Shown here: positions 2,919-56,010 of the stretch, piece by piece
How the letters are laid out: each line of letters opens with the position of its first letter
Numbering within the stretch: the first letter of the stretch is position 1
Source of the DNA: a virus
Length of the DNA: 64,000 nucleotides
Reading direction: 5' to 3' (one strand)
IMG/VR virus record: IMGVR_UViG_3300032144_000385
Location: 1-64,000 of that record
The notes under the pieces: generated by a model
The model's input: only the letters and a program-made list of their open reading frames with translations
Database searches by the model: none
What the model was told of the DNA's origin: nothing
Position numbers and translations under genes: made by a program

Positions 2919-4022
2919 CTACGCCTTCACGAGCTTCCCGCCCTCGACCTTGTAGGCCACGTTCGGCTCGATGCCGGCCTCCCCGACGTAGCCAACCGCC
3001 AGGCGGTAGCGCGCGCCGTCCCACCAGCGGATCCGGAGCTCGCCCCCGTACCCGGCGGTCGCGGTGCCCCCGTACCCGGCGGTCGCGGTGCCGTAGTCCC
3101 CGGCGGTCGCGGTGCCCTGGACCCCGGCGGTCGCGGTGCCCTGGACCCCGGCGGTCGCGGTGCCCCCGTCCCCGGCGGTCGCGGTGCCCCCGTCCCCGGC
3201 GGTCGCGGTGCCCTGGAACCCGGCGGTCGCGGTGCCCCCGTCCCCGGCGGTCGCGGTGCCCCGGTTCCCGGCGGTCGCGGTGCCCTGGAACCCGGCGGTC
3301 GCGGTGCCCCGGTTCCCGGCGGTCGCGGTGCCCCGGTTCCCGGCGGTCGCGGTGCCCCCGTCCCCGGCGGTCGCTGTGCCCTGGAACCCGGCGGTCGCGG
3401 TGCCCTGGAACCCGGCGGTCGCGGTGCCCCCGTCCCCGGCGGTCGCGGTGCCCCCGTCCCCGGCGGTCGCGGTGCCCCGGTTCCCGGCGGTCGCGGTGCC
3501 CCGGTTCCCGGCGGTCGCGGTGCCCCGGTTCCCGGCGGTCGCGGTGCCCCCGTCCCCGGCGGTCGCGGTGCCCTGGAACCCGGCGGTCGCGGTGCCCCCG
3601 CCCCCGGCGGTCGCGGTGCCCCCGCCCCCGGCGGTCGCGGTGCCGTAGTCCCCGGCGGTCGCGGTGCCACCGACGATCGCCCGGCCAGGGCAGAGCTCGG
3701 CCATCCGCGCCGTCGCGGACAGCCGGTCCCCGACGTGAAGCACGGTCACGCGCTCCACCTTCACCTTGCCCCCGAGCTCGATCACTCCGGCGCCGTCCGG
3801 GACGCCGAGCACCATCCAGCGCGCGGTCGGATCCCAAGAGGCGAGCTCGCCATCCCCTTCACCGTGCAGGAACCCGTGCAGGCCGCCGCCGCACTCGGCG
3901 CGGTCGTTCCAATCGGGCGCCGCGACCTCGGCCCCGACCTCGAGGGGCCAGCGGAACCCGCCGTGCGAGATGCCATCGGCCGCGACGGTTCGCAGAAGGT
4001 ACGCCTTGTAGTTCGTTTCCAT
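2919..4022 (-). CDS. DUF7666-like protein with 26 TATAGxxG octapeptide repeats
   Basis: 367 aa. Residues 1 to about 60 look like the N-terminal domain of DUF7666-type proteins (KAYLLRTV...[10 protein letters not shown]). Residues about 117-325 are 26 uninterrupted copies of an 8-residue unit, TATAG-x-x-G, with xx mostly DG, NR or FQ. Each unit carries a Thr-x-Thr pair, as in beta-solenoid ice-nucleation and antifreeze repeats, so a regular solenoid is likely (inference). A short C-terminal domain with RIRWW and YKVEGGKL closes the protein. ATG start, GGAG about 11 bases upstream. It lies between the clamp and methyltransferase genes. The function is unknown. Confidence 0.75.
3049..3672. repeat. 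24-bp tandem repeat array (26 units)
   Basis: In-frame DNA array whose unit is a constant part of about 17 bases (ccggcggtcgcggtgcc) plus a variable spacer of about 7 bases drawn from a small set. It encodes the octapeptides of the 2919-4022 protein. Because the period is a multiple of three and lacks stops, several other frames on both strands stay open through it, giving false collagen-like ORFs. Confidence 0.95.
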
Positions 4023-4053: not shown

Positions 4054-5283
4054 TTACTCGACCGTGACCGGCATTACCCAGTAGTGGAACCCGCCCGCGT
4101 CGACCTCGCAGGCCTCCCCCTTCGCGCGCCAGCGGATCCGCGCCGCCTCGGCGCCGCAGGCCTTCAGGGCGTCGGCCAGGTAGTCGGCCGAGAGCGCCAG
4201 CGGGGCCGGCGCGCCCTTGGGCTCGAGGCGTTCGACCGTCGCGCCGGGGACCGCGACCGAGCACCCGCCCCCGACGAGCGACAGCGCGTCGCCTTCGACC
4301 TCGAGCCGCACGACGCGGGAATCCTTGTCCGCGCAGCCGGCCGCGGCCGCCTTGAGGCACCGCAGGAGCTCCGGCGCCGGCGCGCGCACCGAGGTCGAGT
4401 GCTCCTCCCGCTTGACCGCGCGGTAGCGGGGAAACTCCCCGTCAAGCGGCCGCGCCGCGAGGACGACCGTCCCGCCGTGATCGCTCTCGACCTCGGCCAC
4501 GACGTGACCGCCGGCCGGGTCGAACCGGAGCGCGACGCGCCGGGCCTTCCGGCCGAGCAGCTTCACGAGCGCCGCTGCCGCGTCGCGCGGGAGGATCACC
4601 TTCGCCGGCAGGACGTCCTCCGGCCGATCGGCCACGACGGCCTCGAGCCCCATCCGCCGGCCGTCCGTCCCGGCGAGCTGCAGGCGCGAGCCCTCGAGCT
4701 CGAGCAGCATCCCGTGCATAGCGTAGCGGCCGGCGTCCTTGGCCACCGCGGGGAGCACCCGCTCGAGCGCCGCGCGCAGCGCGGCCGCGTCGACCGTGGC
4801 CACGGTATCGGTGGGCAGGGCCCGGCACAGGGCCGGGAAGTCGCTCGGGTCGGCCTCCACCGCGAGCCGGATGATTCCGGCCTGCGCCACGGTCAGGACC
4901 ACCTCGCCCCGCTCGTCGGGGGTGCCCTGCTCCACCACGACGCGGTACGGCCTCGTCGGCGTCGCCTCCTGGACCACGTCGGGCCTCCCGGCCTTGAAAT
5001 CGCGCGTGACCGCGAGGTCCACCGTGTCCCCTTCGGACGCCTTGAGGAAGGCGCGCGCGTCGTGTATCGGGAGCAGCACCTTGCCCGGGGCCGCGACCGT
5101 CGCGCCGTGCACCCGCGCGCGGACGCTGGAGTCCAGGTCCGTGCCCGAGACGGTCACGCCTTCGGCGTCGGCCTCGACGAGCGCCAGCCGGAGGATCGGG
5201 TTCTTGCTGTTCTTGCGCGCGACGAGCGCGACGGAATCGAGAGCGGCCAGGAGGGACTTGCGGTCAGATTGGATATGCAGCAT
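4054..5283 (-). CDS. dnaN: DNA polymerase III beta subunit-like sliding clamp
   Basis: 409 aa, close to the usual length of bacterial DnaN (about 370-400). The three-domain clamp pattern is visible: N-terminus ending in [19 protein letters not shown], a middle domain with [20 protein letters not shown], and a C-terminus ending [11 protein letters not shown], like the conserved YVVMP end of bacterial clamps. It should form a dimeric ring tethering a polymerase to DNA. ATG start with GGAG in the shared leader. Most phages borrow the host clamp, so an own DnaN-like clamp beside PolA, SSB and a primase-helicase suggests a partly independent replisome. Confidence 0.9.
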
Positions 5284-7215: not shown

Positions 7216-8000
7216 GCGGGGATCTGCGCCGTCACGGTGCCGTCTCGCTGGACCCATCGGCGCGTGCCGCAGGGGCAGTCCAAGAGCTCGGGGTAGGTGC
7301 CGGCCATACTTTTACGCTTCCAGTGGTGGGTGCCATCCGTGCTGCCCCGGCACGGGCGCTGACCGACCTTTCTAATCGGGTCGACGCACGCGGCGAGTGG
7401 AATGGCCACTCCGCAGGTGCAGCGGGCGTTGCTGCCGAAGATGTACCATCCGTGCTCGCCGCCGACGTGGGCGGGGCATGGGCGCAGCGATTGGTCTCGT
7501 AGGTTGCAGAGATCCTGGAAGAACTTGAAGGTGATCGAGAGCTCGATCTCCACGCTGTCGGCACCCACGGCGCGGATCCTCCCGACGTTGGTCCCCAGGA
7601 CGAAGGCCGGTCGTCCGACGATGGCCTGGTCGTCGAGCAGGACGGCGAGGCACATCGCCGCCTCCCGCCGATTGAGGCGTTCCAGCTTTTCCTTCAGCGG
7701 CTCCTCGTTGAGCTCAGGCGGCGCCCGCCTCCCCGCCATGATCGCGTCCACCTTCGCGCGCCGCGCCGCGAGGTCCGCCGCCGCGGCGGCCTTGACGGAC
7801 TCGGGCAGGTCGGACGCGACCGAGTCGTCGGCCTGGCGGTCGACCCCCTGGCAGTTCCAGCCCCACCGCGTCCGGGTGAAGTACCAGCGCTGGCCGCGCA
7901 CGGCCTCGCAGATGGCGACCTGCCCGTCCCGGCAGGGGCCGCGCTGCTCGAGCTCGGCCTTCACCTCGTCGGGCACGTCGTCCCAGAGGATGCGAGTCAC
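7212..8000 (-). CDS. hypothetical protein with two Cys clusters
   Basis: 262 aa, GTG start overlapping the recombinase stop (GTGA). N-terminal domain shared with the next gene (TRILWDDVP, WYFTRTRWGWN). The C-terminal half carries Cys/His groups (CPAHVGG, RCTCG, then DCPCGTRRWVQ) that could form zinc ribbons. The central region is a long charged helix. Function unknown; coupling to the recombinase suggests a DNA-related or accessory role. Confidence 0.7.
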   Translation of the reverse strand: MTRILWDDVPDEVKAELEQRGPCRDGQVAICEAVRGQRWYFTRTRWGWNCQGVDRQADDSVASDLPESVKAAAAADLAARRAKVDAIMAGRRAPPELNEEPLKEKLERLNRREAAMCLAVLLDDQAIVGRPAFVLGTNVGRIRAVGADSVEIELSITFKFFQDLCNLRDQSLRPCPAHVGGEHGWYIFGSNARCTCGVAIPLAACVDPIRKVGQRPCRGSTDGTHHWKRKSMAGTYPELLDCPCGTRRWVQRDGTVTAQIPA

Positions 8001-8635
8001 GCCGCCCTCCGCACCATGTCGCGCACCACCTTCGGGACCCATGAGGCGCCGCCGCCGACGGGGGCGAACCCCTCGTGCCGCAGGCGGTCGCCGATCGACC
8101 GGAGCGACCAGCCCTCGGCGCGCAGCTCGCGCGCGCGGCGGCAGGCCGCCTCGGGGACGCGGTCGTAGCGCGACACGCGCTCGCCGCGGGACCGCTTCAG
8201 GGCCATGGCGGCCGTGGTGCGGTCGGAGATGAGGTCGCGCTCGAACTCGGCCAGGACGGCGAGGAGGCGGAAGACCATCTTGCCGGTGGCCGAGGAGGTG
8301 TCGATCCGCTCGGTCAGGGACACGAGGTCGCAGCCGGCCTTCTCGAGGCGCTCGGCCGTCTCCAGCATGCCGGTCGTCGACCGGGCCACGCGCGACATGG
8401 AGTAGGCCACCAGGGCGGAGCCCTTCCCGCCGGCCTCGGCCGCGGCCAGGGCCGCCACCAGTCCCTTGCGGTCCATTCGGCACCCCGAGCGGGCCTCGTC
8501 GCGGAACAGGACGAGCTCGCGCCCGCCCCCGTTCAGCTCGTGCCACGCCCGGATCTTCGACTCCTGAACCTCGAGCGAGACGCCCTCCCGGGCCTGCTCC
8601 TCGGTCGAGACGCGCACGTAGCCGACGACGATCAT
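7997..8635 (-). CDS. serine recombinase (resolvase/invertase family)
   Basis: 212 aa. N-terminal catalytic domain: GYVRVSTEEQ with Arg8 and nucleophile Ser10, SGCRMDRKGL, then SMSRVARS with the conserved Arg pair, and EFERDLISDRT at the helix-E end. The remaining 60-70 residues fit a C-terminal helix-turn-helix (ACRRARELRAEGWSLRSIGDRLRHEG). The size is that of small resolvases or invertases, not of large phage serine integrases. ATG at 8635 has no Shine-Dalgarno but a TATAGT box five bases upstream, so it may be leaderless. A 15-base segment of the gene equals the intergenic direct repeats. Confidence 0.92.
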   Translation of the reverse strand: MIVVGYVRVSTEEQAREGVSLEVQESKIRAWHELNGGGRELVLFRDEARSGCRMDRKGLVAALAAAEAGGKGSALVAYSMSRVARSTTGMLETAERLEKAGCDLVSLTERIDTSSATGKMVFRLLAVLAEFERDLISDRTTAAMALKRSRGERVSRYDRVPEAACRRARELRAEGWSLRSIGDRLRHEGFAPVGGGASWVPKVVRDMVRRAA

Positions 8636-19839: not shown

Positions 19840-20315
19840 CCGCCGGCAGGTGGGGCAGGCTCGCTGCGGAGGACCGAGTCGAAGGGCGCGCCGGTATCCC
19901 TGGACCATCGAACGAACACCTTTCCCGGGACGTTACCCGAGCCTCCCGCCGCGGTGACCGGGCCGACCCGGAGCAGCCGGACCTCGGCGTGCTCGAGCAC
20001 CGATCCCGGCTCCTCGGCCGCGTGGGCCTGGCAGAGTCGCACCGCCGACTCGGCGGCGTCGCGCGGCGTCGCGGCCGAGAACACCTCCGTCCAGCGGGAG
20101 ACGTCCGCCGGCCCGTGGCGGATCCCGTAGCTGACCTCGAAGACGTGCGACCGGGTCCAGCCGAGGCGCCGGAGGAACGCCGGCACGTCCGGCTCCTCGT
20201 CGAGCCTGCACGCGCCGAGGAACACCGCCACGAGGTCGCTCCCGGGCGCCGGGTGCGCGTCCCCGAGCCGGGGGAGCCGCACGACGTCGCCGGGCCTGCG
20301 CATCTTCCGCCTCAC
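19836..20315 (-). CDS. hypothetical protein
   Basis: 159 aa, GTG in a GTGA overlap with the primase-helicase. Contains DLVAVFLGACRLD, HVFEVSYGIRHGPADVSRWTEVFSA and KVFVRWSRDTGAPFDSVL. A mixed alpha/beta protein without a recognised family. Its position suggests a replication accessory role. Confidence 0.6.
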   Translation of the reverse strand: MRRKMRRPGDVVRLPRLGDAHPAPGSDLVAVFLGACRLDEEPDVPAFLRRLGWTRSHVFEVSYGIRHGPADVSRWTEVFSAATPRDAAESAVRLCQAHAAEEPGSVLEHAEVRLLRVGPVTAAGGSGNVPGKVFVRWSRDTGAPFDSVLRSEPAPPAGG

Positions 20316-22708
20316 GAGAACGCCTCCTCCCTGGGCCGGTCCTGCAGGAGCTGGCCCTCCGTCCACGAGAACTCGCCGCCCATGTACTCGGCCCACCGGC
20401 GGCGGGACTCCTCGAGCGTCGGCAGGACGAGGATGCGCGGCCGGTCGACGATCCGGGTCTCCCCGTCCTCGACCACGACGTGCGCCGGGCGGGCGAGCTG
20501 CTGGCGCTCGGCGCCGAGGCGCTCGAGCATGCGCCAGAGGCGCCCGACCCCGATGCGGTGCCCGCGGCCCCAGCTGCCGGCGTGCGACGTGAAGTCGTGC
20601 AGGACCTCGGTCCAGGCGATCCACTGCGGCCACGCCTCGCCCTCGCGGAACTGGCCGGCGCGGAGCTTCTCGAGCCACCACTCCTGCTCCAGCGGCAGGC
20701 TGTGCTCCTTCTGCTCCTGCTCGGCCGCGGTGTGCGGCACGTCGCGGGGCTCGAAGCGCGAGAGGTCGCGCGTCATGAGGAGGTGGAGGAGCGCCTCCCT
20801 CCCGCCCGCGGCGAGCTGCTCGCCGATCGCGCGGAAGTGGGGCTTGTCCTGGCGGTTCCCGTTGCCGACCTCGAGCACGAGGTAGCGGCGCTCGTGCGGG
20901 CCGGCGGGGACCACCCAGTCCTCGTTGGCCGCCATGATGATATGCAGGCAGTTCGCGGCGGTCTCGGCGGCGCGGAACTTCGCGCGCGCGACGCGGCGGC
21001 TCTCGGTGATCAGGCCCTTCAACACGGCCTCGTTCCGCTTGTCTCCGGCGAAGAACGCCTCGTCGGCGTAGAGGACCACGGTGTCGAGCAGGTGCTCGTT
21101 GAAGTCGCCGAACACGTCGCTCGGGCTCGTGATCGGGAAGAAGTGCCGCCCGAACAGCTCGCCGAAGTTGGTCGCGAAGACGCCCTTGCCGGCGCCGCGC
21201 GCGCCGCGCAGCACGATCGCGACGTGCGCCTGGTCCCCGGGGCGCTGCACCGCGCGCGCCATCCAGGAGAGCAGGTACTCGTAGTGCTCCTCGTTCCCCG
21301 CGCAGATGTTGCGCCGGACGTGGTCGAGGTAGAGCGAGCAGTCGCCGGGGACCGCCTCGCACGCGAAGCCGCGCCAGAGGTTGTACGCGCCCGGCACCGC
21401 GCGCCCGGGCGCGAAGAGCATGCGGTCGTACTGGCGGCGCTGCGGGTGGGCGAGCCACCAGCGGCCGAGGTCGCGCGTCCGCGGGTCGTCGCCCTCCTCG
21501 CCGGGGACCTCGACCGTGCGGTTGGAGTACCGGTTGATCATGTCCTCGAAGGTCTGCAGCGAGAACACGTCCCGGCCGAGGACCGGGTCGAGGGACTCGG
21601 AGATCACGCGGCACTTGCCGCCGACGTCGGCCACGACGGCGTGGCGCGAGTTCAGGTCGGCGAGCAGCGGGTCGTCCTCCTGCTCGTGGGCGCGCTGGAT
21701 CTGCTGCAGGGCGTAGCGCTCGGCGCGGCTGCCCTTGTCGAGGACGGACTCGCTGATCCCGAAGTCGGGGTCGGTGATCACCGAGTACACGACGTCGTCG
21801 GACACCCCGCTCCGGAGCAGGGAGCACACGACCCAGAACAGAGGCTCGGAGCGGCTCTTCCACCGCCGCGGGTGGTCGGGGTCGTGGCCGCGGTTGATCA
21901 CGACCTTCACCCCGCCCGGCACGGTCTCGGGCAGCTCGTCGAGCGAGAGCAGGCGCTGGACGTTCGCCGTCTCGACCCGCCGCGGCGCCGGGGCCGGGAA
22001 GGTGGCGTCGCCCTCGCCCTGCCGGGGGGCGGCGGGCGTGAACGCGGACAGCGGGTGCGAGAGGTCCCAGTCGGCGGCGGCGACGCGCGCCACCGCGGGC
22101 GCGCGCCCGGCCGCGCGCTTCTTCGCGTCCGGCCAGTTGACCGTGCCCGGGAGGCGCATGAGCCGGTCGACGTTGTGGCAGTTGTCGCCGCCGAGGACCA
22201 CCTCGAGCTGGATGTTCCAGCGCGCGGCCTCCTCGTAGGCCTCGGGCCGGCCGCCGACGTCCACGGGCTCGGCGAGGCGCCAGAGCATCTGGTAGCCGCC
22301 GCCGGAGTCGACGAGGACCGTAGGCCGCGGGAGGAAGGCCGGCCACCGGTCCCCGACCAGGGCCTCGATCCGCGCGCGCTCCTCGGCGAGGGGCTTCCGC
22401 TTGTCGGGGTCCACGTCGACGTGGAGCCACTCGAGGGCCGCCACGTCCTCGCGCGAGGGCTTCCGCGCCACCGGGCGCAGGAGCGGGTTCACGGTCCAGT
22501 AGAGGTTGCGCCCCGCGGCGTTCTCGCGCTCGATCCACGCGCGCGCCTCGTTCCCCTCGCGGGTCGCGAAGCTGCGCACCCGGATCTTGTCGGGGTCGCC
22601 GGTCGGGAGGTCGGGGTCGATGCGCGCCAGCGCCCAGAACCCCTCGGGGCGGACGCGGCGCAGGAAGTCGACCGCGGCCTGGGGGTCAGGGGTCGTCGGG
22701 GAAGTCAC
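20312..22708 (-). CDS. primase-helicase (AEP-type primase plus DUF5906-like helicase)
   Basis: 798 aa. N-terminal half is an archaeo-eukaryotic-type primase: LHVDVDPDK (near 100, metal ligands), VDSGGGYQMLWRL (near 135), then DRLMRLPGTVNWP. C-terminal half is an SF3/DUF5906-like ATPase with Walker A RGARGAGKG (near 504), a Walker B-like LYADEAFF (near 548) and MAANEDWVVPA as sensor 1. It unwinds and primes phage DNA. GTG start overlapping the nuclease-like gene by 23 bases. It matches the order usual for siphovirus replication modules, next to PolA. Confidence 0.9.
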   Translation of the reverse strand: MTSPTTPDPQAAVDFLRRVRPEGFWALARIDPDLPTGDPDKIRVRSFATREGNEARAWIERENAAGRNLYWTVNPLLRPVARKPSREDVAALEWLHVDVDPDKRKPLAEERARIEALVGDRWPAFLPRPTVLVDSGGGYQMLWRLAEPVDVGGRPEAYEEAARWNIQLEVVLGGDNCHNVDRLMRLPGTVNWPDAKKRAAGRAPAVARVAAADWDLSHPLSAFTPAAPRQGEGDATFPAPAPRRVETANVQRLLSLDELPETVPGGVKVVINRGHDPDHPRRWKSRSEPLFWVVCSLLRSGVSDDVVYSVITDPDFGISESVLDKGSRAERYALQQIQRAHEQEDDPLLADLNSRHAVVADVGGKCRVISESLDPVLGRDVFSLQTFEDMINRYSNRTVEVPGEEGDDPRTRDLGRWWLAHPQRRQYDRMLFAPGRAVPGAYNLWRGFACEAVPGDCSLYLDHVRRNICAGNEEHYEYLLSWMARAVQRPGDQAHVAIVLRGARGAGKGVFATNFGELFGRHFFPITSPSDVFGDFNEHLLDTVVLYADEAFFAGDKRNEAVLKGLITESRRVARAKFRAAETAANCLHIIMAANEDWVVPAGPHERRYLVLEVGNGNRQDKPHFRAIGEQLAAGGREALLHLLMTRDLSRFEPRDVPHTAAEQEQKEHSLPLEQEWWLEKLRAGQFREGEAWPQWIAWTEVLHDFTSHAGSWGRGHRIGVGRLWRMLERLGAERQQLARPAHVVVEDGETRIVDRPRILVLPTLEESRRRWAEYMGGEFSWTEGQLLQDRPREEAFS

Positions 22709-23450: not shown

Positions 23451-23635
23451 GGGGAGGGGGTCTCCGAGAAGATGCCGTCGCTCACGATGCGGTCGACGAC
23501 GTCGCAGATGGACAGGATGTGGGTCTTGCAGAGGCCGACGATCCTCGGCCCGGTGGTCGTGTAGAACACGACGTCGAGGGCCGGCGGCGCGCCGCACCTG
23601 ACGCAGGGTGTCGGGAGCAGGAGTACGGGGATCAC
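23447..23635 (-). CDS. small Cys-containing protein (62 aa)
   Basis: GTG overlapping the PolA stop. A Cys pair (CVRCG) near the N-terminus and a third Cys in GLCKTHI form a possible small zinc finger. Function unknown. Confidence 0.55.
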   Translation of the reverse strand: MIPVLLLPTPCVRCGAPPALDVVFYTTTGPRIVGLCKTHILSICDVVDRIVSDGIFSETPSP

Positions 23636-25617
23636 TCGACCTCGCCCCAGCTTCGGCCGTGCTCGGGCTTGACCAGGTGGGGCACGCTGCAGGGTACCGC
23701 GTTCAGCATGATCTCCGCAAGCTGAATCGAGGTTCGGCGGTCGCCGACCGAGAGGTCGAGCTCGTCGTGGACCTGGAGCTGCAGCGCGATCCCGGCCTCG
23801 TCCGCGTCGACCATGGCCCGCTTGATCTGGTCGGCGCTCGAGCCCTGCACGACGCGGTTCGTCGCCTTGTGGGTCCAGTCGTAGCCCGGCCGGCCGTCGC
23901 GGTGGCGCGGGAAGCGGCACACGCGCCCGAGCACGGTGCGGACGTAGCCCTGGCGCTTGGCGACCTTCTCGGTCTCCTGGTTCAGCTCGCGGATGAACGG
24001 CGCGCCGCGGTGGAAGTCGTCCATCACCGCCTGGCCCTCGTCGCCCGCGACCTCGATGTAGCGGCCGCTCCTGGTCTCGACCCAGCGCGTGGGCTTGCCG
24101 AGCTGCCGGCAGAGCTTGGGGCCGCCCATGCCGTACGCGATCCCGAGGTAGACGGTCTTGGTGCGCTCCTTGCCCTCGTCGCCGGACCAGCCGATGCGGT
24201 CGCGCAGCACCTCGTAGAGCTTGGTCGCGGGGTCGCGCCGGAAGGCGTCGCGCATCTCGGCCGCGCCGGTGCAGCGCGTCTCCGCGGCGAAGTGGATGAG
24301 CCAGCGCGGCTCCTGCGCGCTGTAGTCGAGGCACGCCCACTCGGCCCCCTCGTCGGCGAGGTAGGCCTTGCGCCAGATCGCGCCGATTGCGGGGTCGCGG
24401 ACCGGCTGGTTCTGGAGGCTCGGGTCGGTGGCCGACACGCGGCCGCTGATCGTGCCCTCGTCGTCGTCCGAGGCGTCGTCCTTCGCGCGCTTGACCTGGT
24501 TGAACGTGCAGTGCACGCGGCCGCGGACCTGGTGGTCCCGCAGCTGCTGGACGTAGGTCGTGCGCAGCTTGGAGAACCGGCGCGCGCGCAGGTACAGGTC
24601 CACCGCGGGGTGGTGCAGCGCGCGCAGCTTCGGCGCCTTGAGCTCGTGCTTGTTCGTCTCCGTGCGCCCGAGCTTCAGGCCCAGGGCCGACTCGATCAGC
24701 GGGCCGACCACGGCCGACTTCGCGAGGTCGGAGGGCTGCAGGCGGCGCCCGACCGCGGTCGAGAAGGCCGCGCAGGCGTCCTCCTCCTCGCGGAGGCAGC
24801 GCGCCTCGACGACGTCGAGGTGCGGCAGGTCCACGCGCACCCCGCGGCGGCGCATGCCGAGCAGGACCGGCAGGAGGCGGGACTCGAGGTCCCAGAGCGA
24901 GCGCAGGCTCGCCGCCCGGCCGGACGCCACGCGCGCGTCGGCCGAGTCGGTGGCCGCGAGCCGCCGCTCCTGGGCCTCGAGGATCTCGAGCGGCCGGAGC
25001 GCGTCGACCTCGGCGTAGGGGCCGACGTGGCGCGAGGGCAAGCGCCAGATGTGGGCCTTGGGGTTCCACTTCCGGTTGCCGCGGCGCTCGCCGGCGCAGA
25101 AGTGCCGCGCCGCCTGGTCGAGGAGCGCCTCGTCCTTCCCGGCGAGGCCGTTCCGCTCGGCCACGGCCTGCAGCGAGTAGGAGAACTGGAGCTCGTCGAG
25201 CAGGGGCTCGAGCACCTGGATGTCCCGGAACCGGCGCGGCCGGAACCGGACCCCGGCCTCCTCGAGGTAGTCGAGGTCGTAGGGCAGGTTCGCCCCGACG
25301 ATCTCGGCCGCGTTCTCGGTCGCCGCGGCCTGGTCGCGGAGGTACGCGAGCACGGCCTCCGGGTCGAGGTTACCGCCGCCCTCGTGGCGGATCGGGAGGT
25401 ACCACCCGCGGCGCGCCTCGCCGGGCCGGTCGATCGAGAACGAGATCCCGACCACGTAGCCCCCGCGGCGCACCCCGATCCCGAGGTCGTCGCCGATGCT
25501 GTCGTCGCGGGTCTCCGTGTCGATCGAGACGCGGGTCGCCCCGCGCCAGGAGGGCAGCGAGGAGAGCTCCGGCGGCCGCCACCCGGTGACCGGGGCGAAG
25601 AGGCGCAGCTGGACCAC
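23632..25617 (-). CDS. polA: family A DNA polymerase with 3'-5' exonuclease
   Basis: 661 aa. Exonuclease: SIDTET (Asp-x-Glu, near 33), NLPYDLDYLE and YAEVD. Polymerase: motif A DYSAQEPR (near 429), motif B KTVYLGIAYGMG (near 489), motif C QVHDELDL (near 615). No 5' nuclease domain, as in phage PolA. The motif A form with QEPR is seen in other phages. In motif B the residue equivalent to E. coli Phe762 is Leu, a type reported to associate with temperate phages. It replicates the phage genome, probably with the DnaN-like clamp. GTG start. Confidence 0.96.
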   Translation of the reverse strand: MVQLRLFAPVTGWRPPELSSLPSWRGATRVSIDTETRDDSIGDDLGIGVRRGGYVVGISFSIDRPGEARRGWYLPIRHEGGGNLDPEAVLAYLRDQAAATENAAEIVGANLPYDLDYLEEAGVRFRPRRFRDIQVLEPLLDELQFSYSLQAVAERNGLAGKDEALLDQAARHFCAGERRGNRKWNPKAHIWRLPSRHVGPYAEVDALRPLEILEAQERRLAATDSADARVASGRAASLRSLWDLESRLLPVLLGMRRRGVRVDLPHLDVVEARCLREEEDACAAFSTAVGRRLQPSDLAKSAVVGPLIESALGLKLGRTETNKHELKAPKLRALHHPAVDLYLRARRFSKLRTTYVQQLRDHQVRGRVHCTFNQVKRAKDDASDDDEGTISGRVSATDPSLQNQPVRDPAIGAIWRKAYLADEGAEWACLDYSAQEPRWLIHFAAETRCTGAAEMRDAFRRDPATKLYEVLRDRIGWSGDEGKERTKTVYLGIAYGMGGPKLCRQLGKPTRWVETRSGRYIEVAGDEGQAVMDDFHRGAPFIRELNQETEKVAKRQGYVRTVLGRVCRFPRHRDGRPGYDWTHKATNRVVQGSSADQIKRAMVDADEAGIALQLQVHDELDLSVGDRRTSIQLAEIMLNAVPCSVPHLVKPEHGRSWGEVE

Positions 25618-25620
25618 GGG

Positions 25621-25875
25621 TCAGGCCTCCCAGACCGTGCCGACCACGAGCTCCACGAACTCCCGGTCGGAGATCGGGGTCGCGTCGGCCTCGTAGAGGA
25701 AGACCCCGGCCGCGTCGCGCCGGTGCACGTAGATCGTCCCGAACCAGCGGGACTCGTTGAACTCGATCGGCGCCGGCTCGAGTCGCAGCACGTCCGGGAG
25801 CTCGCGCCCGGTGGCCACGTCCACGAGGCGGGCGCGCGTCATGCCGCCGTGGGTCACGAGGCGGAGGGTTCTCAA
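25621..25875 (-). CDS. small hypothetical beta-rich protein (84 aa)
   Basis: TTG start in a TTGA overlap. Pattern ARLVDVATGRELPDVLRLEPAPIEFNESRWFGTIYVHR is like the short phage proteins of the type found at 30868-31140: a ligand name-like first strand, a loop, and an amphipathic strand. The function is unknown. Confidence 0.55.
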   Translation of the reverse strand: MRTLRLVTHGGMTRARLVDVATGRELPDVLRLEPAPIEFNESRWFGTIYVHRRDAAGVFLYEADATPISDREFVELVVGTVWEA

Positions 25876-26618
25876 CCGAACACGTCCCCGCCGTCGAGCT
25901 CCGGGGCCTCGGCGCGGCGCACGTACTCCTCGATGGACTCCTGGCCGCCGCAGAGGCCGCGCTGGTCGCACGTCCGGCAGGCGTCGCCCTCCCAGACGTC
26001 GCCGGGCTCGGCGCCGCCGGCGATCTCCTTCATGATGGAGGCCTCGTCGAGCAGGTTCGACCACTCCGCGCGGCAGCGCTCGGCCGGGATCTCGGCGTGC
26101 ACCTCGCGCGCCGGCCCGAGGCCCGGCTCGACCGGGATCTGGTTGTGCCGCACCACGACGGGCCGGGAGAACCCGGTCGCGCGCGAGAGGATGGCCGCGT
26201 AGCAGAGCATCTGCGCGTCCTCGCCGATCCATCGCCGGGCGCCGGGGCGGCCGCTCGCGAGGTAGGCGCGGCCGGAGGCCGCGAAGGTCTTGTGGTCGTG
26301 CACCTCGGGGACCAGGGTGCCGGGGTCGAGGTACAGCGCGTCGACCTTGCCGGCGATCTCGAAGGCGCCCTCGGACGACTGGACCTTGACCTCGACCAGG
26401 GGCGGCGGCTCGAGGCGCAGGACGGGGCGCGCGACCTCGAGGATCGGGTCGGCCCGGTCGTGGTCCCTGCCCCCGAGCACCGCGGCGAGGAGCGCGTGGA
26501 CCCGGTCGCCGCGGCCGCGGCGGTTCCGCCGGACCTCGGGGAGCCGCATCACGTACTTCCAGTACCAGGCGCGGGGGCACTTCCTGAACAGGACGTGCTG
26601 GGAGGGGGAGGTGCGCAA
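25872..26618 (-). CDS. RecB/Cas4-like PD-(D/E)XK exonuclease
   Basis: 248 aa, TTG start. FRKCPRAWYWKYVMRLPE at the N-terminus, GKVDALYLDPG and VHDHKTF forming the D...D-x-K core, QMLCYAAIL helix, and a C-terminal Cys group (CRTCDQRGLC). With the first Cys this resembles Cas4/RecB-type iron-sulfur nucleases. Likely processes DNA ends in replication or recombination. Confidence 0.82.
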   Translation of the reverse strand: MRTSPSQHVLFRKCPRAWYWKYVMRLPEVRRNRRGRGDRVHALLAAVLGGRDHDRADPILEVARPVLRLEPPPLVEVKVQSSEGAFEIAGKVDALYLDPGTLVPEVHDHKTFAASGRAYLASGRPGARRWIGEDAQMLCYAAILSRATGFSRPVVVRHNQIPVEPGLGPAREVHAEIPAERCRAEWSNLLDEASIMKEIAGGAEPGDVWEGDACRTCDQRGLCGGQESIEEYVRRAEAPELDGGDVFG

Positions 26619-26622
26619 CGGG

Positions 26623-27897
26623 TCACTTTCCGCTGCCGCCGGCCAGCACGCCGTCGCGCCAGACGCGGAGCTTGTCGGCCTCGGGGCCGGTCGGGGGAAG
26701 GGGGGTCGTCTCGAGCGGGTCGTTCAGGAGGTCGTACAGCTCCTCGACCCCGTCGGGGCGCGTCAGGAGCTTCCAGCGCCGGCCGATCGCCGCGCGGTCG
26801 AGGCGCGGCGGGGGCGACCAGGCGAACACGAACGGCCGCGGCCCGGGCACCGGCCCGAGGAACGTGGCGGCGAAGGAGAGGCCGTGCGAGAGGCCGCTCG
26901 CGGCGTCGGGGCGCGGCTGGATGTTGACGATGCGCGCCAGGGTCGGCAGGAGGTCGACGCCGACGTGCACGAGGGCCTGGCTCTCGCTCGGCACCACCCC
27001 CGGGCCGCGGACGATCAGCGGGACGCGGATCCCGTCCTCGTAGCAGGTCAGCTTCACGCGCGCGGGGTCCTGCTCGGGGCGGGTCGCGACGGTGTCGGCC
27101 GGGTCCTGGCCGGGGACGATTCCCGGGGTCCCGTTGTCGCCGAGGAAGACGATCCAGGTCGAGGGCCCGACCAGGGCCGCGATCTGGCCCACGGCCACGT
27201 CGAGGCCGGCGATCTCGGCCTCGTAGGCCTCGCGGTTCGTGCAGGGGACGTGCGGGCACTGCGGGTAGCCCGGCGGCAGGATCGAGGGCGGCGGGCGCTT
27301 GAACGGCGCGTGCCCGGCCGCGAAGTTCACGATGGCGAAGCGGGGCGAGGGGGTCTCGGTCCACCACTGGACGAAGGCGTCCCGGCAGGCGATCGTCTCG
27401 TCCCCGCCGGCGGAGGGCGAGGCGACCCCGTCGTCGAGGCGGACCACGCCGCAGGACTCCCCGACCGGGCGGCCGTTCAGGACCCGGTCGTAGCCCTCGA
27501 GCTCCGGGGCGAGCTGCCAGTCCCCGACCTCGGGGACGCCGAGGTGCCACTTGCCGATGTGGGCGGTGTTGTAGCCCTGGCCGTCCAGGACCTCGGCGAT
27601 CGAGAGGTCGTTCGGGTCCCGGGAGACCGAGACCGGCAGGGCGCAGGCGTCCCCGCGGAAGACGCCGAGCCAGCGCGAGCGGTCCATGCTGTCGCGCGTC
27701 GGGGCGCACCAGCCGTGGGAGTAGGCGCGGCGGTACCGCACCCCCTCGGCCGCCAGGGCGTCGAGGCTCGGGGTCCATCCGGCCGCGGACACGTCGTCGA
27801 TGTCCGAGTCGGCGATGTCGTCTCCGACGATGATCACGATGTCCGGCCGCGCGGGGGCGGCCTGCAGGAGGGCCAGGAGCAGGGCGGCGAGGATCAT
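26623..27897 (-). CDS. secreted type I sulfatase
   Basis: 424 aa. Signal peptide MILAALLLALLQAAPA, then the alkaline-phosphatase-like fold of sulfatases: PDIVIIVGDD (metal Asp26/27), the formylglycine site C64-A-P-T-R68 fitting CxPxR, GKWHLG (115-120), H196 in GHAPF, and GDNG (253-256) with a later EDGIRVPLIVRGPG. All key residues are present, so it should be active if a host formylglycine-generating enzyme modifies Cys64. Substrate unknown; sulfated polysaccharide or sulfate esters are typical. Very unusual in a phage replication operon and probably cargo. Confidence 0.92.
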   Translation of the reverse strand: MILAALLLALLQAAPARPDIVIIVGDDIADSDIDDVSAAGWTPSLDALAAEGVRYRRAYSHGWCAPTRDSMDRSRWLGVFRGDACALPVSVSRDPNDLSIAEVLDGQGYNTAHIGKWHLGVPEVGDWQLAPELEGYDRVLNGRPVGESCGVVRLDDGVASPSAGGDETIACRDAFVQWWTETPSPRFAIVNFAAGHAPFKRPPPSILPPGYPQCPHVPCTNREAYEAEIAGLDVAVGQIAALVGPSTWIVFLGDNGTPGIVPGQDPADTVATRPEQDPARVKLTCYEDGIRVPLIVRGPGVVPSESQALVHVGVDLLPTLARIVNIQPRPDAASGLSHGLSFAATFLGPVPGPRPFVFAWSPPPRLDRAAIGRRWKLLTRPDGVEELYDLLNDPLETTPLPPTGPEADKLRVWRDGVLAGGSGK

Positions 27898-27906
27898 GTC
27901 CCCAGC

Positions 27907-28527
27907 CTAGCGGGCCGGCGCGCGGCGGTAAAGGCGGCGGTAGAAGCGTACGACCTGGTCCGCCTGCACGGCGGCGTCGTCGAGGGCCGAGTGCTTGACC
28001 AGGGGCGAGGTCTCGAGCACCTCGGCCCAGCCGTCCTGGCCGGACTGCATCGCGGCCTTGGCCGCGGCGATCACGGTGCGGAGGTCCTGCTCGTTCCGGT
28101 GCTGCCAGGGCTCGTCGACCCCGAACTTCGCCAGCTGGGCGCGCAGGGTCACGAGGTCGTACTGCGGCGGCTTCGCCCACACGGTGAGCTCGGCGTCGCG
28201 GCCGTTTATCGTCCGCAGCGACGCGGCGAACGCCGCCAGGAAGGCGCGGTAGTCGTCGTGCCGCGGCTCGCGGATCAGCGCCTCGCGCGCGTCCTGCGAC
28301 TGGGCGAGCCACCACTCGACGGTGTCGGCGTTGACCTCGAGCCCGGCGCGCGACGCCGCCCCGAGCGAGCACCGGACCTCGACCCAGTACGCGGCCGGGG
28401 CGACGGAGCAGTCGTCGGGGTGGATCTGGAAGGGCACGACGCCGATCGAGAGGACCGCGGCGCTCGGCCCGTGGCCCATCGTCTCGACGTCGATCATCAC
28501 GTTGCGGTAGCGGGAGGGCGCGGTCAA
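27907..28527 (-). CDS. DnaQ-like 3'-5' exonuclease (Rv2179c type)
   Basis: 206 aa from TTG in a TTGA overlap; the NVMIDVETMG that follows begins the domain. Asp-x-Glu site in VMIDVETMG, helix with WWLAQS, and a late Asp in HSALDDA are typical of the DUF5051/Rv2179c-like DEDDh exonucleases of phages. It may trim DNA or RNA ends. Confidence 0.85.
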   Translation of the reverse strand: MTAPSRYRNVMIDVETMGHGPSAAVLSIGVVPFQIHPDDCSVAPAAYWVEVRCSLGAASRAGLEVNADTVEWWLAQSQDAREALIREPRHDDYRAFLAAFAASLRTINGRDAELTVWAKPPQYDLVTLRAQLAKFGVDEPWQHRNEQDLRTVIAAAKAAMQSGQDGWAEVLETSPLVKHSALDDAAVQADQVVRFYRRLYRRAPAR

Positions 28528-29590: not shown

Positions 29591-29836
29591 TTAGCGGTCC
29601 TCCGGCACCGACGTCGTAATCCGCTTCAGGCGGCACACGTCGCAGGGACACTCCCCGGGGCGGAGGAAGCGGAAGTCCACCTCGCCCGTGCGCTGGTCGA
29701 TCGTCCGCTCGGCGACGCCGGCCTCGATCGCCTCGACCCTCAGTCCGGCGCGACCGACGTTGTAGCCGAGGAAGCCGCCGAGCCCGAAGAATATGGCCAC
29801 CCAGACCAGGCACACGCCCACGCTGTCGTCGCTCAC
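29591..29836 (-). CDS. small membrane protein with Cys pair (81 aa)
   Basis: GTG in a GTGA overlap. N-terminal membrane helix (VCLVWVAIFFGLGGFLGYNVG), a soluble domain with RVEAIEAGVAERT, and a C-terminal CPCDVC. Topology suggests a membrane-anchored cytoplasmic domain. Unknown function. Confidence 0.6.
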   Translation of the reverse strand: MSDDSVGVCLVWVAIFFGLGGFLGYNVGRAGLRVEAIEAGVAERTIDQRTGEVDFRFLRPGECPCDVCRLKRITTSVPEDR

Positions 29837-30483
29837 GGTCGCTTCCTCCGAGGGATGATGTTCTCCAGGCTCTGCAGGTACGTCCGCCAGAACACCCAGT
29901 CGATCGCGGTGTGGAAGCCCCACGACCGGCGGTGCGGCCCCCAGAGGACCAGCGTCACCGTGCCGGGGTCGACCTCGACGATGCGGTGCGCGTCGGTGGC
30001 GCGGCGGAACGCGACGGAGAGGAGGCCGCGCCGCGCGGTCCGCGTCGGCATGCCGTGCACGGAGAGGCCGAGGTCGTAGCGGTTGCCCTCGAGCCGCAGC
30101 TCGTGCTCCACGGTCGCGGGGGCCGGCCGCTCCTCGACGTAGCCGCCGCGCAGCACGATCGACACGAAGGACCGCGGGTGGTCGTGCATGTCGCGGCCCG
30201 GGTCCGGGGCGCGGATCAGGTGCACGCTCGCCTGCGCGAGGGGGCAGCGCGCGAGGTACAGCTTGGTCATGTAGTGGGCCCCGGCGAACCAGAGCTCCTG
30301 CCAGCGCCACGCGGCGTACCGCTGGTCGTCGCCGAGCTCGCGACGCTCGCCGCCCTGGACGAGCGAGAACCACGCGACGGCGATCAGGGACCAGACCGCC
30401 ACCGGGACCGCGAGCTCGGTCGGGAGGAACGTCATCGCGGCAGCCGCGGAGAGCGAGGCCACGGAGAGCTGCAGGCGGCTCAC
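29833..30483 (-). CDS. membrane-anchored cupin-like protein
   Basis: 216 aa, GTG start in a GTGA overlap. Two hydrophobic segments in the first 45 residues, then a cupin-like domain: MHDHPRSFVSIVLRGGYVEE (His pair), a second strand set, and HRIVEVDPGTVTLVLWGPHRRSWGFHT. Fits a family of phage cupins whose substrate is unknown. A second, soluble cupin-like protein is at 8959-9354. Confidence 0.7.
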   Translation of the reverse strand: MSRLQLSVASLSAAAAMTFLPTELAVPVAVWSLIAVAWFSLVQGGERRELGDDQRYAAWRWQELWFAGAHYMTKLYLARCPLAQASVHLIRAPDPGRDMHDHPRSFVSIVLRGGYVEERPAPATVEHELRLEGNRYDLGLSVHGMPTRTARRGLLSVAFRRATDAHRIVEVDPGTVTLVLWGPHRRSWGFHTAIDWVFWRTYLQSLENIIPRRKRP

Positions 30484-30871: not shown

Positions 30872-31140
30872 CGCCACGGGAGGAGCCTCCTCAGGCGGGC
30901 GAGGAGCCGCTGGGACGCGCGCGGCACGACCCGCACGTTGACCGCGCCGGCCAGGATCTCGACGCCCTTCGGGTAGACGGTGAGGTCCATCGTCGTCTGG
31001 TAGGTCTCGGCGTCCAGGTGCAGTGCCAGCGACTTGATCGGGATCAGGCTCGTGACGTCCTTCTCCCCGAGGAAGACCTGGAAGTCGGTGGTCGGCGTCG
31101 CGCCGATCTTGAAGAGGAGTCGCCCGGATGTGCTGCTCAT
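30868..31140 (-). CDS. small beta-rich phage protein
   Basis: 90 aa, ATG start. FKIGATPTTDFQVFLGEKDVTSLIPIKSLALHLDAETYQTTMDLTVYPKGVEI is a common phage pattern (a named ligand-like loop DVTSLIPI followed by amphipathic strands) of unknown function. The end is basic. Confidence 0.6.
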   Translation of the reverse strand: MSSTSGRLLFKIGATPTTDFQVFLGEKDVTSLIPIKSLALHLDAETYQTTMDLTVYPKGVEILAGAVNVRVVPRASQRLLARLRRLLPWR

Positions 31141-32264
31141 CGGATCAGTCCTTGGCTCAGGGGGAGCGCGTGGTCGGGGAGGGGGAGGATCGGCTCGCGC
31201 GAGACGTCGAGGCCGCGCGCGGCCGCGACCTCGCGGATCGCGGGGGTGTTGTTCCCGGCGATGCGCGTCGCGCCGTCGGGGATGTTAGTGGTCTGGACCT
31301 GCAGGCCGCGACCGTAGATCGCGTTGCCCTCGATCGTGAGGCTGCGGCAGGAGCGGTGCGAGCCCGGGGAGAGGTTCCCGACGCGGATCACGGTCGAGTA
31401 GCCCTCGGGGCCGCCGTCGGCGCGGATCAGGTTGCGCCGGATGATCACGTCGCCGTTCCGGTAGGGCGAGTCCTGCGCGCCCTGCGGCCAGCCGCGCAGC
31501 GAGCCGTCGTCGACCATGATGGCGCGCGCGTGGAGCGGGGTGTCGCTCGGCATCCAGAACTGGTTGTCCTCCACCGTGAGGTGGGAGGCCCCGCCCTCGC
31601 ACACGATGGCCCCGCTGCCGCGGGAGGTCCAGGGCATGCCGGTTCGCTTGAAGACGCACCGGCGGATGACCTGACGCGCGCGGGGGCCCGGCCAGGGGAC
31701 CTCCTCGCGGTCGGGGCGCGCCTTGACGTGCTGCGCGCCCGACTCCATGAACTCGACCGCCTCGATCAGGCTGCCGAGGTCGGCCCAGCAGTGCTGGTAG
31801 ACCGAGTGCTCGGTCGAGCGCCCGTACCAGACCACGCCGTGGCGGAGCAGGAGGTCGGCCCGGTAGGTGAAGATCCCCCAGCACACCGAGGAGACCTGGC
31901 CCGCCGCCGGGTCCTCGGCCACGAGCTCGAAGTCCTCGACCTCCAGGCGGAAGCGCCGGGAGAGCGGGGCGACCGAGTCCGGCTCCCCGGCCATGAGCGC
32001 CGAGCGCCCGCGACCGTGGATGCTCAGGCTCTCGAAGCGGACCGTGCCCTGGTGCTCGGCGACGAAGAGGTTGGTCCAGACTCCGGGGGCGGGGCGGATG
32101 CGCGTGCGGCCGCGCCCGCGGCCGATGAACCGGACCCCGCGGTAGCCCTGGGCGAGCCAGGTCGCCGGGTCGTAGAGCCGCCCCCCGTTGTCGAGGCGCC
32201 GGCCGACGTCGAACCCCGGGACGTCGCCCTCGGGGAGCCTGATCTCGAGAAGTCCCTTAGCCAT
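31137..32264 (-). CDS. right-handed beta-helix protein
   Basis: 375 aa, ATG start. Repeated short strands and turns with Asn and Gly (VRFESLSIHGRGRSALMAG, IRRCVFKRTGMPW, LTVEDNQFWMPS, VIIRRNLIRADGG, SLTIEGNAIYGRG) are typical of pectate-lyase-like parallel beta-helices. Such folds occur in tailspike depolymerases, but the gene is in the replication region rather than with the tail genes. No signal peptide. It may be a virion enzyme or an intracellular carbohydrate-binding protein. Confidence 0.75.
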   Translation of the reverse strand: MAKGLLEIRLPEGDVPGFDVGRRLDNGGRLYDPATWLAQGYRGVRFIGRGRGRTRIRPAPGVWTNLFVAEHQGTVRFESLSIHGRGRSALMAGEPDSVAPLSRRFRLEVEDFELVAEDPAAGQVSSVCWGIFTYRADLLLRHGVVWYGRSTEHSVYQHCWADLGSLIEAVEFMESGAQHVKARPDREEVPWPGPRARQVIRRCVFKRTGMPWTSRGSGAIVCEGGASHLTVEDNQFWMPSDTPLHARAIMVDDGSLRGWPQGAQDSPYRNGDVIIRRNLIRADGGPEGYSTVIRVGNLSPGSHRSCRSLTIEGNAIYGRGLQVQTTNIPDGATRIAGNNTPAIREVAAARGLDVSREPILPLPDHALPLSQGLIR

Positions 32265-54300: not shown

Positions 54301-54557
54301 GACTCGTGCGCCGAGGCCTCGACCTCGGACAGGACCGGCGCGGGCGCGACCCCGAGCCAGCGGAGCTGGTGGGCCACCCAGGGGCAGCCCTCCATCCCCA
54401 CGAGCCCCGCCCGGAAGAGGGGCAGGATGTGCCGCGCGTCGCACCACCCCGGCACCCGGTCGCCCGGGGCCAGGAGGGTGTTCCCGTCGAGCCGGGCGTG
54501 GCGGACGGCCACGACCGGCTCCCCGGGACGGTAGGACTCGCGGCCGCCGCCGCTCAC
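54297..54557 (-). CDS. hypothetical protein, possible head-tail joining factor
   Basis: 86 aa, GTG start. VAVRHARLDGNTLLAPGDRVPGWCDARHILPLFRAGLVG. No family recognised; position between capsid and connector suggests a neck role. Confidence 0.5.
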   Translation of the reverse strand: MSGGGRESYRPGEPVVAVRHARLDGNTLLAPGDRVPGWCDARHILPLFRAGLVGMEGCPWVAHQLRWLGVAPAPVLSEVEASAHES

Positions 54558-55570
54558 GACACGGCCGCGCTGAAGAAGTAGCCGAGCTCGGGGCCGGTGA
54601 CCTTGTAGTCGAAGGCCATCTGCCCCTCGATCGTGTCGGCCTCAACCTTCTCGTCGCGGAACCGCTTGATGCGGAAGCCGCTCGGCGTCGAGCCGGTCAG
54701 GCCGGACCAGCTGAACTGGACCCCGGCCGAGGGCGTGCCCTGCACGTCCACGGAGTTCGGGGCGTAGTACAGCAGCGCGTTCTTGCCGGCGAGGAAGCTC
54801 GTGGCCTCGGTGGCGCCCTCCTTGGCGGAGTTGGCGACGCCGTCGGCGACGAGGATCTCGTCGAGCTCGAGCAGGCTCGCGACCAGCTGGCGCTGGACCT
54901 GAGCGGGCTGGCCCACCGTCGCCCCGCCGTTGATGCGCGAGAGCAGGTCGGCGTTGTCGAGCAGCTTGTTCCACACCTGGCGCGAGAGCAGCAGGCGGTT
55001 CGGGCGGAAGCCCGTCTTGCCCTGCACGGACTCGATGCCGAGGCGGATGTTCGCGATCGGCGTGCTGCCGCTCACGTCCCACCGCAGGAACTGGTTGGTC
55101 GTGGGGCCGGAGGCGACGCCGACCTGGTCGGTGCCGCCGGTCCAGATGCCCAGGCCGAAGTAGCGCGCGAGGAACAGGGCCTCGCGGCGGATCATGAGCT
55201 TCAGCGCCACGTACTGCGCGGACGACTCGTCGAGAGCGACCTGCGAGTCCGCGTTGGCGCGCTGCTGGTCGGTCACGTCCTTGGCGAACTTGTGCACCTT
55301 GCACAGGTAGCTGTCCTGCGACAGCGAGAAGCCGCCCTTGGGGGCCTCGTGACCGTCGGCGACCTCCTCGGCCTCGTCGCGGTAGAAGTCCGCGCGCGAG
55401 AACTTCCAGTACTGGTCCGCCTTGTTCTGCACCGGGAGGTTGGGCATCCCCCGGAGCGAGACGAAGTTGGACTGGTCCTGCAGGTACTTCTGCGCGAAGT
55501 TGCCGAGCGGCCGGACGACGTGGACGTCGCTGACCGTCGGGTTGCTCACCATCTTGCGGAACTTGCTCAT
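54554..55570 (-). CDS. major capsid protein
   Basis: 338 aa. Starts MSKFRKMVSNPTVSDVHVVRPLGNFAQKYLQDQSNFVS and contains IRREALFLARYFG, FRPNRLLLSRQVWNKLLDN and FRIKRFRDEKVEADTIEG, matching the HK97-fold major head proteins seen in Mu-like and YuA-like siphoviruses. Confidence 0.92.
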   Translation of the reverse strand: MSKFRKMVSNPTVSDVHVVRPLGNFAQKYLQDQSNFVSLRGMPNLPVQNKADQYWKFSRADFYRDEAEEVADGHEAPKGGFSLSQDSYLCKVHKFAKDVTDQQRANADSQVALDESSAQYVALKLMIRREALFLARYFGLGIWTGGTDQVGVASGPTTNQFLRWDVSGSTPIANIRLGIESVQGKTGFRPNRLLLSRQVWNKLLDNADLLSRINGGATVGQPAQVQRQLVASLLELDEILVADGVANSAKEGATEATSFLAGKNALLYYAPNSVDVQGTPSAGVQFSWSGLTGSTPSGFRIKRFRDEKVEADTIEGQMAFDYKVTGPELGYFFSAAVS

Positions 55571-55598: not shown

Positions 55599-56006
55599 TC
55601 AGGCGTCGCGACGGTCGGCTCCCTTCAGGAACAGGATCTCGATGACCTCGTTGGCCGCGCCCGCGCTCTGCAGGGCGTAGCCCAGGATGCGGTCCGTGGC
55701 CGCGGCGACGGCCACGGCGCGGCCGGCGCTGTCGGTCGTGACCGGCACCGCGCCGGCCGTGATGTCGATCGCGGCCCCGGCGAGGACCTTGGCCACGCAG
55801 TTCGGGAGCAGCATCGGGATGCGGGTCTCACCCGCGGTGATCTGCGCGGCCGAGCGCGCCTCCAGGGAGATGCCGACCACGTCGTCGGCCGCGGCGTTGG
55901 CCGCGGTCGCGACGGCGTTGGCCGAGGCGATCTCCAGGAACTTGTACTGCGCGATGGCCGCGGCCACCGTGATCGGGACGATGACGCCGCTGATGTTGGC
56001 GGACAT
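55599..56006 (-). CDS. head decoration protein (DUF2190-like)
   Basis: 135 aa, ATG start. VPITVAAAIAQYKFLEIASANAVATAANAAADDVVGISLEARSAAQ, IDITAGAVPVTTDSAGRAVAVAA and ILGYALQSAG fit capsid cement proteins of the DUF2190 type that stabilise the shell. Confidence 0.82.
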   Translation of the reverse strand: MSANISGVIVPITVAAAIAQYKFLEIASANAVATAANAAADDVVGISLEARSAAQITAGETRIPMLLPNCVAKVLAGAAIDITAGAVPVTTDSAGRAVAVAAATDRILGYALQSAGAANEVIEILFLKGADRRDA

Positions 56007-56010
56007 GGGA

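Follow-up and report, generated by a model that had tools for sequence, protein, structure and literature searches.

What a phage gains from a sulfatase gene set among its replication genes, and whether such a gene truly belongs to the phage, are the questions raised by a locus in a 64,000-nucleotide stretch of DNA (hereafter the window) from a 70.7-kb IMG/VR virus record. An initial annotation had described the locus as a complete secreted sulfatase and had listed the active-site motifs that it appeared to retain. The gene and its catalytic elements are given below, with conservation assessed in an alignment of 39 sulfatases comprising the window protein and 38 others (8 phage rows and 31 cellular rows).

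26623..27897, minus strand: sulfatase gene, 424 aa, S1 type (PF00884, AlphaFold2 model, Foldseek)
27817..27822, minus strand: metal-ligand pair D26-D27 (D26 in 39/39 and D27 in 38/39 aligned sulfatases)
27694..27708, minus strand: formylglycine motif C64-A-P-T-R68, CxPxR (Cys and Arg in 39/39 rows, Pro in 30/31 cellular rows)
27538..27555, minus strand: GKWHLG, residues 115-120, with K116 and H118 (K116 and W117 in 39/39 rows; H118 in 8/8 phage and 26/31 cellular rows)
27310..27312, minus strand: conserved H196 (39/39 rows)
27130..27141, minus strand: GDNG, residues 253-256, with metal ligands D254 and N255 (both in 39/39 rows)
27052..27054, minus strand: conserved K282 (Lys in 38/39 rows)

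The open reading frame is complete, with an ATG start, an in-frame TAG immediately upstream, and 424 codons. Translation and alignment confirmed that CAPTR at C64-R68, GKWHLG, the metal Asp residues, and GDNG are all intact as first described, and that the window protein retains all ten catalytic or metal positions (D26, D27, C64, R68, K116, H118, H196, D254, N255, and K282); the formylglycine motif is defined as (C/S)xPxR (PMC8746622, PMC10185571). PF00884 matched the protein with an E-value of 2.1e-24 and 86.8 bits, against a curated cut-off of 25 bits, with residues 18-325 lying on positions 1-300 of the 301-position profile, and the alignment with sulfatases thus spans the whole domain. 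Sequence comparison with solved structures gave 9fo1, an S1_16 k-carrageenan sulfatase, as the best match (1.7e-16), and a Foldseek search with an AlphaFold2 model showing the sulfatase fold (pLDDT 85.3, pTM 0.89) returned the same entry as its top PDB match (E 5e-24, TM 0.75), the matches being glycan sulfatases that act on carrageenan (S1_16), mucin O-glycans, and GAGs. The window protein has in common with 9FO1 the fold, CxPTR, GKWH, the metal D/D/D/N residues, and the conserved His and Lys, but differs from it in being short (424 aa) and phage-carried, with approximately 24% identity. None of the curated subfamily models reached its own cut-off for the window protein: choline-sulfatase TIGR03417 scored 47.1 bits against an equivalog cut-off of 433, arylsulfatase PRK13759 scored 41.6 against 481, and NF045661, for PehA-type phosphoric/sulfuric ester hydrolases, scored 20.1 against 900. 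The unannotated family PHROG 19870 aligned with the protein only over its N-terminal 103 positions (4e-14). The family match and the model place the protein, with high confidence, among the S1 formylglycine sulfatases, with activity predicted, and the enzyme itself is of a known kind. The protein shares only about 24% identity with characterised enzymes, too little to name a substrate, and it may also act as a phosphatase; PyuS combines sulfatase and phosphatase activity (PMC8746622).

The setting of the gene bears on whether it is part of the phage. The features that define the operon and its carrier are as follows.

27907..28503, minus strand: upstream neighbour, Rv2179c-like 3'-5' exonuclease (ORF open to 28830, domain start near 28503; PF16473 3.4e-33, phrog_255 1.6e-44)
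25872..26618, minus strand: downstream neighbour, PD-(D/E)XK nuclease, RecB-like exonuclease (PF12705 4.2e-16, PHROG exonuclease families)
23632..25617, minus strand: phage DNA polymerase A, the operon core (PF00476 5e-45)
20312..22708, minus strand: phage primase/helicase, same operon (phrog_1829 DNA primase 2.5e-63)
54554..55570, minus strand: major capsid protein (phrog_1005 4.7e-67; 48% to Ruegeria phage Tedan)

The upstream exonuclease ends 9 bp before the sulfatase ATG and the PD-(D/E)XK nuclease gene starts 4 bp past the sulfatase stop, which bears out the earlier description of a gene tightly packed between two exonuclease genes in a phage replication operon. This operon, with polA and the primase/helicase, also holds a methyltransferase and helicases. 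The GC3 of the sulfatase gene (0.99) equals that of the adjoining polymerase and nuclease genes, and its use of synonymous codons matches the phage no less closely than that of the polA and capsid genes. Phage hallmark genes lie on both sides of the sulfatase gene, and those in the window include polA, primase, portal, capsid, tape measure, and tail genes. PolA shares 45% identity over 100% of its length with Mesyanzhinovviridae phages such as PaMx11 and Ab18, whereas the capsid protein is nearest to those of Ruegeria phage Tedan (48%) and RDJL phages (range 40-48%). These signals differ as to family; judged informally from its sequence, the contig belongs to a tailed phage with distant kinship to both Mesyanzhinovviridae and RDJL-type phages.

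Sulfatases had been described as rare in phages, and the surveys of phage and viral sequences agree with this. A tblastn search of 50,697 INPHARED phage records gave five weak matches and none in isolated phages; four were unverified gut scaffolds and the fifth a Salmonella chromosome contig entered as a phage, and these matches were dismissed as proof of phage carriage. The latter record (AFYI01000001.1) is a Salmonella Infantis contig inside a phage collection, and its arylsulfatase is bacterial. No sulfatase lay within 10 kb of a related polA in 80 viral contigs, nor anywhere in 50 whole records of polA-related viral contigs, and the idea that the sulfatase is a conserved trait of this phage group was rejected on these counts. 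In BFVD, the sulfatase fold occurred only in giant viruses of eukaryotes; the proteins of Yasminevirus (A0A5K0U8V6), Satyrvirus, and Tetraselmis virus 1 have this fold in common with the window protein but differ in their eukaryotic hosts, their 13-17% identity, and their lack of kinship as phages. Scanning 2.9 million viral contigs for a high-GC DNA pattern encoding [IV]GKWH[LV]G found seven stretches, a number that is a floor given the narrowness of the pattern. Viral contigs searched with a single sulfatase, polymerase, or PDDEXK protein returned no match, and relatives among these contigs were reached by alignment searches only. A literature search of partial coverage found viral sulfatases in passing mentions only and turned up no work on desulfation as a means of phage attack.

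The alignment searches of viral contigs identified short sulfatases in other phage contigs, all matching PF00884. These proteins (L010-L014, L015, L022, L196/L201, L198, and G157:C31) are approximately 400-490 aa in length and are encoded among phage genes, as in the window, but belong to other phage types and gene neighbourhoods. The window sulfatase groups with L010, L012, L013, L011, and L014 in one phage-only clade, with support (UFBoot/SH-aLRT) of 96/89 and 97/93 and weaker support of 95/53 in one of three trees, to which closer cellular sequences had been added; a four-member core with L012 and L013 reached 97-98/87-97. A nearly phage-only outer group seen in the first trees was broken up by the closer cellular sequences, while the six-member clade stayed. 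The sulfatases L015, L022, L196/L201, L198, and G157:C31 fall on other branches. As the branches of the clade are long, the tree points to a long residence in phages. With respect to location, the L010 gene lies between a terminase-small-like gene and the terminase large gene, those of L012, L015, and L022 have terminase or portal genes close by (portal in the case of L015, which adjoins it), those of L011 and L014 follow closely after baseplate-wedge and tail-fibre genes, and that of L198 has Erf and RecE-like genes upstream. The replication-operon setting is particular to the window phage, the neighbours elsewhere being mostly packaging, portal, baseplate, or tail-fibre genes.

An assembly chimaera, or a recent and non-functional host gene caught in the contig, would be consistent with the lack of a nearby sulfatase in all 80 related loci found by polA. 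The gaps of 4 and 9 bp to phage genes, codon usage like that of polA and capsid, an intact active site, membership of a clade with other phage genes, and the distance of any cellular gene (best approximately 30% identity among the matches listed) all argue against this. The spacing and the phage codon usage make it very unlikely that the gene is chimaeric or newly inserted, and together with the phage relatives they led us to reject this explanation, its remaining probability being close to negligible. The initial statement that the gene is not a recent stray insertion is upheld by the tight packing, the codon usage, and the deep phage-only clade.

To trace cellular relatives, a profile of the six phage proteins was searched against Myxococcota, Planctomycetota, and Acidobacteriota-type and Gemmatimonadota-type phyla, a sample that excludes Pseudomonadota, the host phylum of the related phages. 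Matches at E <=1e-70 occurred in 7/96 Myxococcota genomes and 5/99 Planctomycetota genomes, and none at 1e-72 was found in 80 Acidobacteriota-type or 61 Gemmatimonadota-type genomes. For the phyla sampled, the Myxococcota and Planctomycetota sulfatases (L202, L208, L209, L221, and others; 240-271 bits) are the closest cellular group to the phage profile; they differ in being cellular and outside the six-member phage clade. As to the cellular group with which the gene might cluster, the tree thus gave a phage-only clade whose nearest sampled cellular relatives are in these two phyla, and an origin in Myxococcota or Planctomycetota is the best lead that the profile scores provide.

A 64-kb phage contig, G157:C31 (L230-L233; 64,045 bp), was present in one of 237 Myxococcota genomes and shares a structural module with the window phage (capsid 48-50%, tail 35-44%, portal 45%). 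It carries its own sulfatase at positions 55644-56960 of the contig, shortly after the portal gene, with the leader MSRVLITVLALCASVSAQ and with CSPTR, DD, GKWH, and GDNG present. As this sulfatase lies on a different tree branch from that of the window and at a different location, the two related phages most likely gained their sulfatases separately. The link of G157:C31 to a Myxococcota host is suggestive only, because its GC content (0.626 versus 0.65 for the remainder of the bin) and tetranucleotide usage (r 0.83-0.85) come close to those of the bin without matching them. The gene order of G157:C31 looks like that of a circularly permuted phage genome.

Formylglycine maturation poses a puzzle, as sulfatases requiring a host-made formylglycine enzyme would make the phage dependent on a host modification pathway. 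A search of the phage records that covered the FGE type of maturation enzyme (PF03781), as distinct from radical-SAM anSME, gave no match, and PF03781 proteins are encoded by the Myxococcota genomes checked. The CxPxR proline, which is treated as part of the FGE target motif (PMC10185571, PMC8746622), is kept by the window sulfatase as it is in nearly all cellular rows, while several phage copies depart from the motif that the host formylglycine pathway reads.

L012:1803-2990: phage sulfatase with the proline replaced by Q
L013:5998-7200: phage sulfatase with the proline replaced by Q
L014:5833-7164: phage sulfatase with the proline replaced by A
L022:4457-5926: phage sulfatase with the proline replaced by T

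The motif reads CSQSR in L012 and L013, CSASR in L014, CSTSR in L022, and CTTTR in L198, and in L011 the DD metal pair is replaced by DC. The proline-less phage sulfatases and L011 may be differently matured or inactive. What is new here is a small sulfatase lineage common to unlike phages, separate gains elsewhere, and changes to the maturation motif in some members.

Where the window sulfatase would act depends on its N-terminus.

27850..27897, minus strand: probable short Sec signal peptide, residues 1-16 (MILAALLLALLQAAPA), before RPD (hydrophobicity, model, likeness to L010)

Residues 1-16 form the most hydrophobic N-terminus among the 34 window genes tested, and in the AlphaFold2 model, which has a helix at 2-10 and a strand from residue 20, they end just ahead of the strand that opens the core. 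L010, the relative closest to the window protein, bears a classical signal peptide at this position, and a classical leader is also present in the G157:C31 sulfatase. The window leader is short and has no Lys or Arg ahead of its hydrophobic core, and for this reason the predicted signal peptide is graded as probable; on this evidence we consider export of the protein likely. Export is not a feature of all phage sulfatases, since a signal peptide is absent from L012, L013, and L022.

The alkaline-phosphatase superfamily takes in nucleotide phosphodiesterases. With nuclease genes on both sides, and a weak PF01663 match in some phage relatives, the window protein could instead be an intracellular enzyme acting on a nucleotide or another small phosphate or sulfate ester, for example in counter-defence. 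The window protein itself has no PF01663 match, keeps the sulfatase-typical GKWH and DNG, and falls far below the cut-off of the PehA model (20 versus 900 bits), and its hydrophobic leader speaks for export, leaving this explanation only a slim chance.

Our preferred explanation, to which we assign somewhat better than an even chance as a whole, is that of an exported, host-matured phage sulfatase that removes sulfate from host surface glycans. A catalytically complete S1-type enzyme, probably a long-standing part of a tailed-phage replication operon, would be expressed together with the replication genes during infection, exported through the Sec pathway, and matured by an FGE-type enzyme of the host. 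It would then hydrolyse sulfate esters in the envelope or slime polysaccharide of the host itself, and the sulfated surface layer, once changed or loosened, could let progeny escape, prevent re-adsorption to debris, and keep competing phages out. The benefit to phage spread would parallel that of viral neuraminidases acting on sialic acid. The surface-glycan role, taken by itself, is tentative and falls somewhat short of an even chance; the location of the gene among replication genes in the window phage suggests neither a lysis nor a virion role and counts against it.

The initial annotation had proposed host nutrition as one use of the enzyme and surface desulfation affecting adsorption as the other. 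The same exported enzyme might indeed serve host metabolism, with the gene acting as an auxiliary metabolic gene whose product releases sulfate or sulfated sugars that the infected host can draw on for sulfur or carbon. The closest structural matches do degrade glycans, a list of auxiliary sulfur genes of viruses includes sulfatase (PMC10029852), Pseudoalteromonas phages are reported to carry FGE genes (PMC10232697), and packing with replication genes is as expected for an early or middle gene. A surface role is nevertheless favoured over nutrition because in the phage relatives the gene is mostly grouped with those for packaging, portal, and tail, and because no other gene for sulfur, sugar, or polysaccharide use was recognised among the annotated genes; the nutritional explanation also fits poorly with the phage members that have no signal peptide, and we regard it as unlikely.

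Location in the relatives raises a further alternative, that the enzyme is carried on the virion and desulfates capsule or slime at adsorption so that the phage reaches its receptor. The L011 and L014 genes follow baseplate-wedge and tail-fibre genes, those of the G157 phage and L015 adjoin portal genes, and three phage members have no signal peptide, all of which would suit such a virion-associated enzyme. The window gene lies in the replication operon, well away from the tail genes, and encodes a hydrophobic leader, and its product has no tail-attachment domain, the sulfatase fold taking up all 424 aa of the AlphaFold2 model; for the window protein, carriage on the virion is thus rather improbable, and desulfation of the host surface by an exported enzyme is retained as the preferred reading.

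Phages cut capsules with glycosidases and lyases. It may be, although we hold this broader picture to be doubtful, that in slime-forming, sulfatase-rich bacteria, possibly Myxococcota or Planctomycetota, tailed phages repeatedly took up sulfatases, of which one is now a phage-specific lineage remodelling the sulfated host surface, with some members proline-less and so perhaps matured or used differently. If a recurring phage sulfatase lineage is real, it would suggest that sulfated surface polymers are a true barrier or receptor in contests between phage and host, and the lineage would name candidate host groups and offer compact sulfatases for biochemistry.

Several other features of the window phage were observed. 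A 375-aa protein encoded at 31137-32264 (minus strand), 3.2 kb from the sulfatase, has a repeat pattern like that of a right-handed beta-helix and no Pfam or PHROG match, and could be a glycan-binding or glycan-cutting protein. The operon that contains the sulfatase also encodes a cysteine-dioxygenase-like protein (29833-30483, minus strand; phrog_4786, 2e-29). Elsewhere on the minus strand, the window encodes a DNA polymerase III beta clamp (4054-5283; TIGR00663 4e-26, phrog_947 2e-45), a repetitive 367-aa protein that matches phrog_18079 in four stretches together with DUF4774 (2919-4022), and a 212-aa ORF with a serine recombinase N-terminal domain (7997-8635; CcrB-like, 6e-21), which may encode a resolvase or indicate that the phage is temperate. 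Close to its right end, the virus record has two tandem 34-bp copies that are 97% identical (L114:7393-7460).
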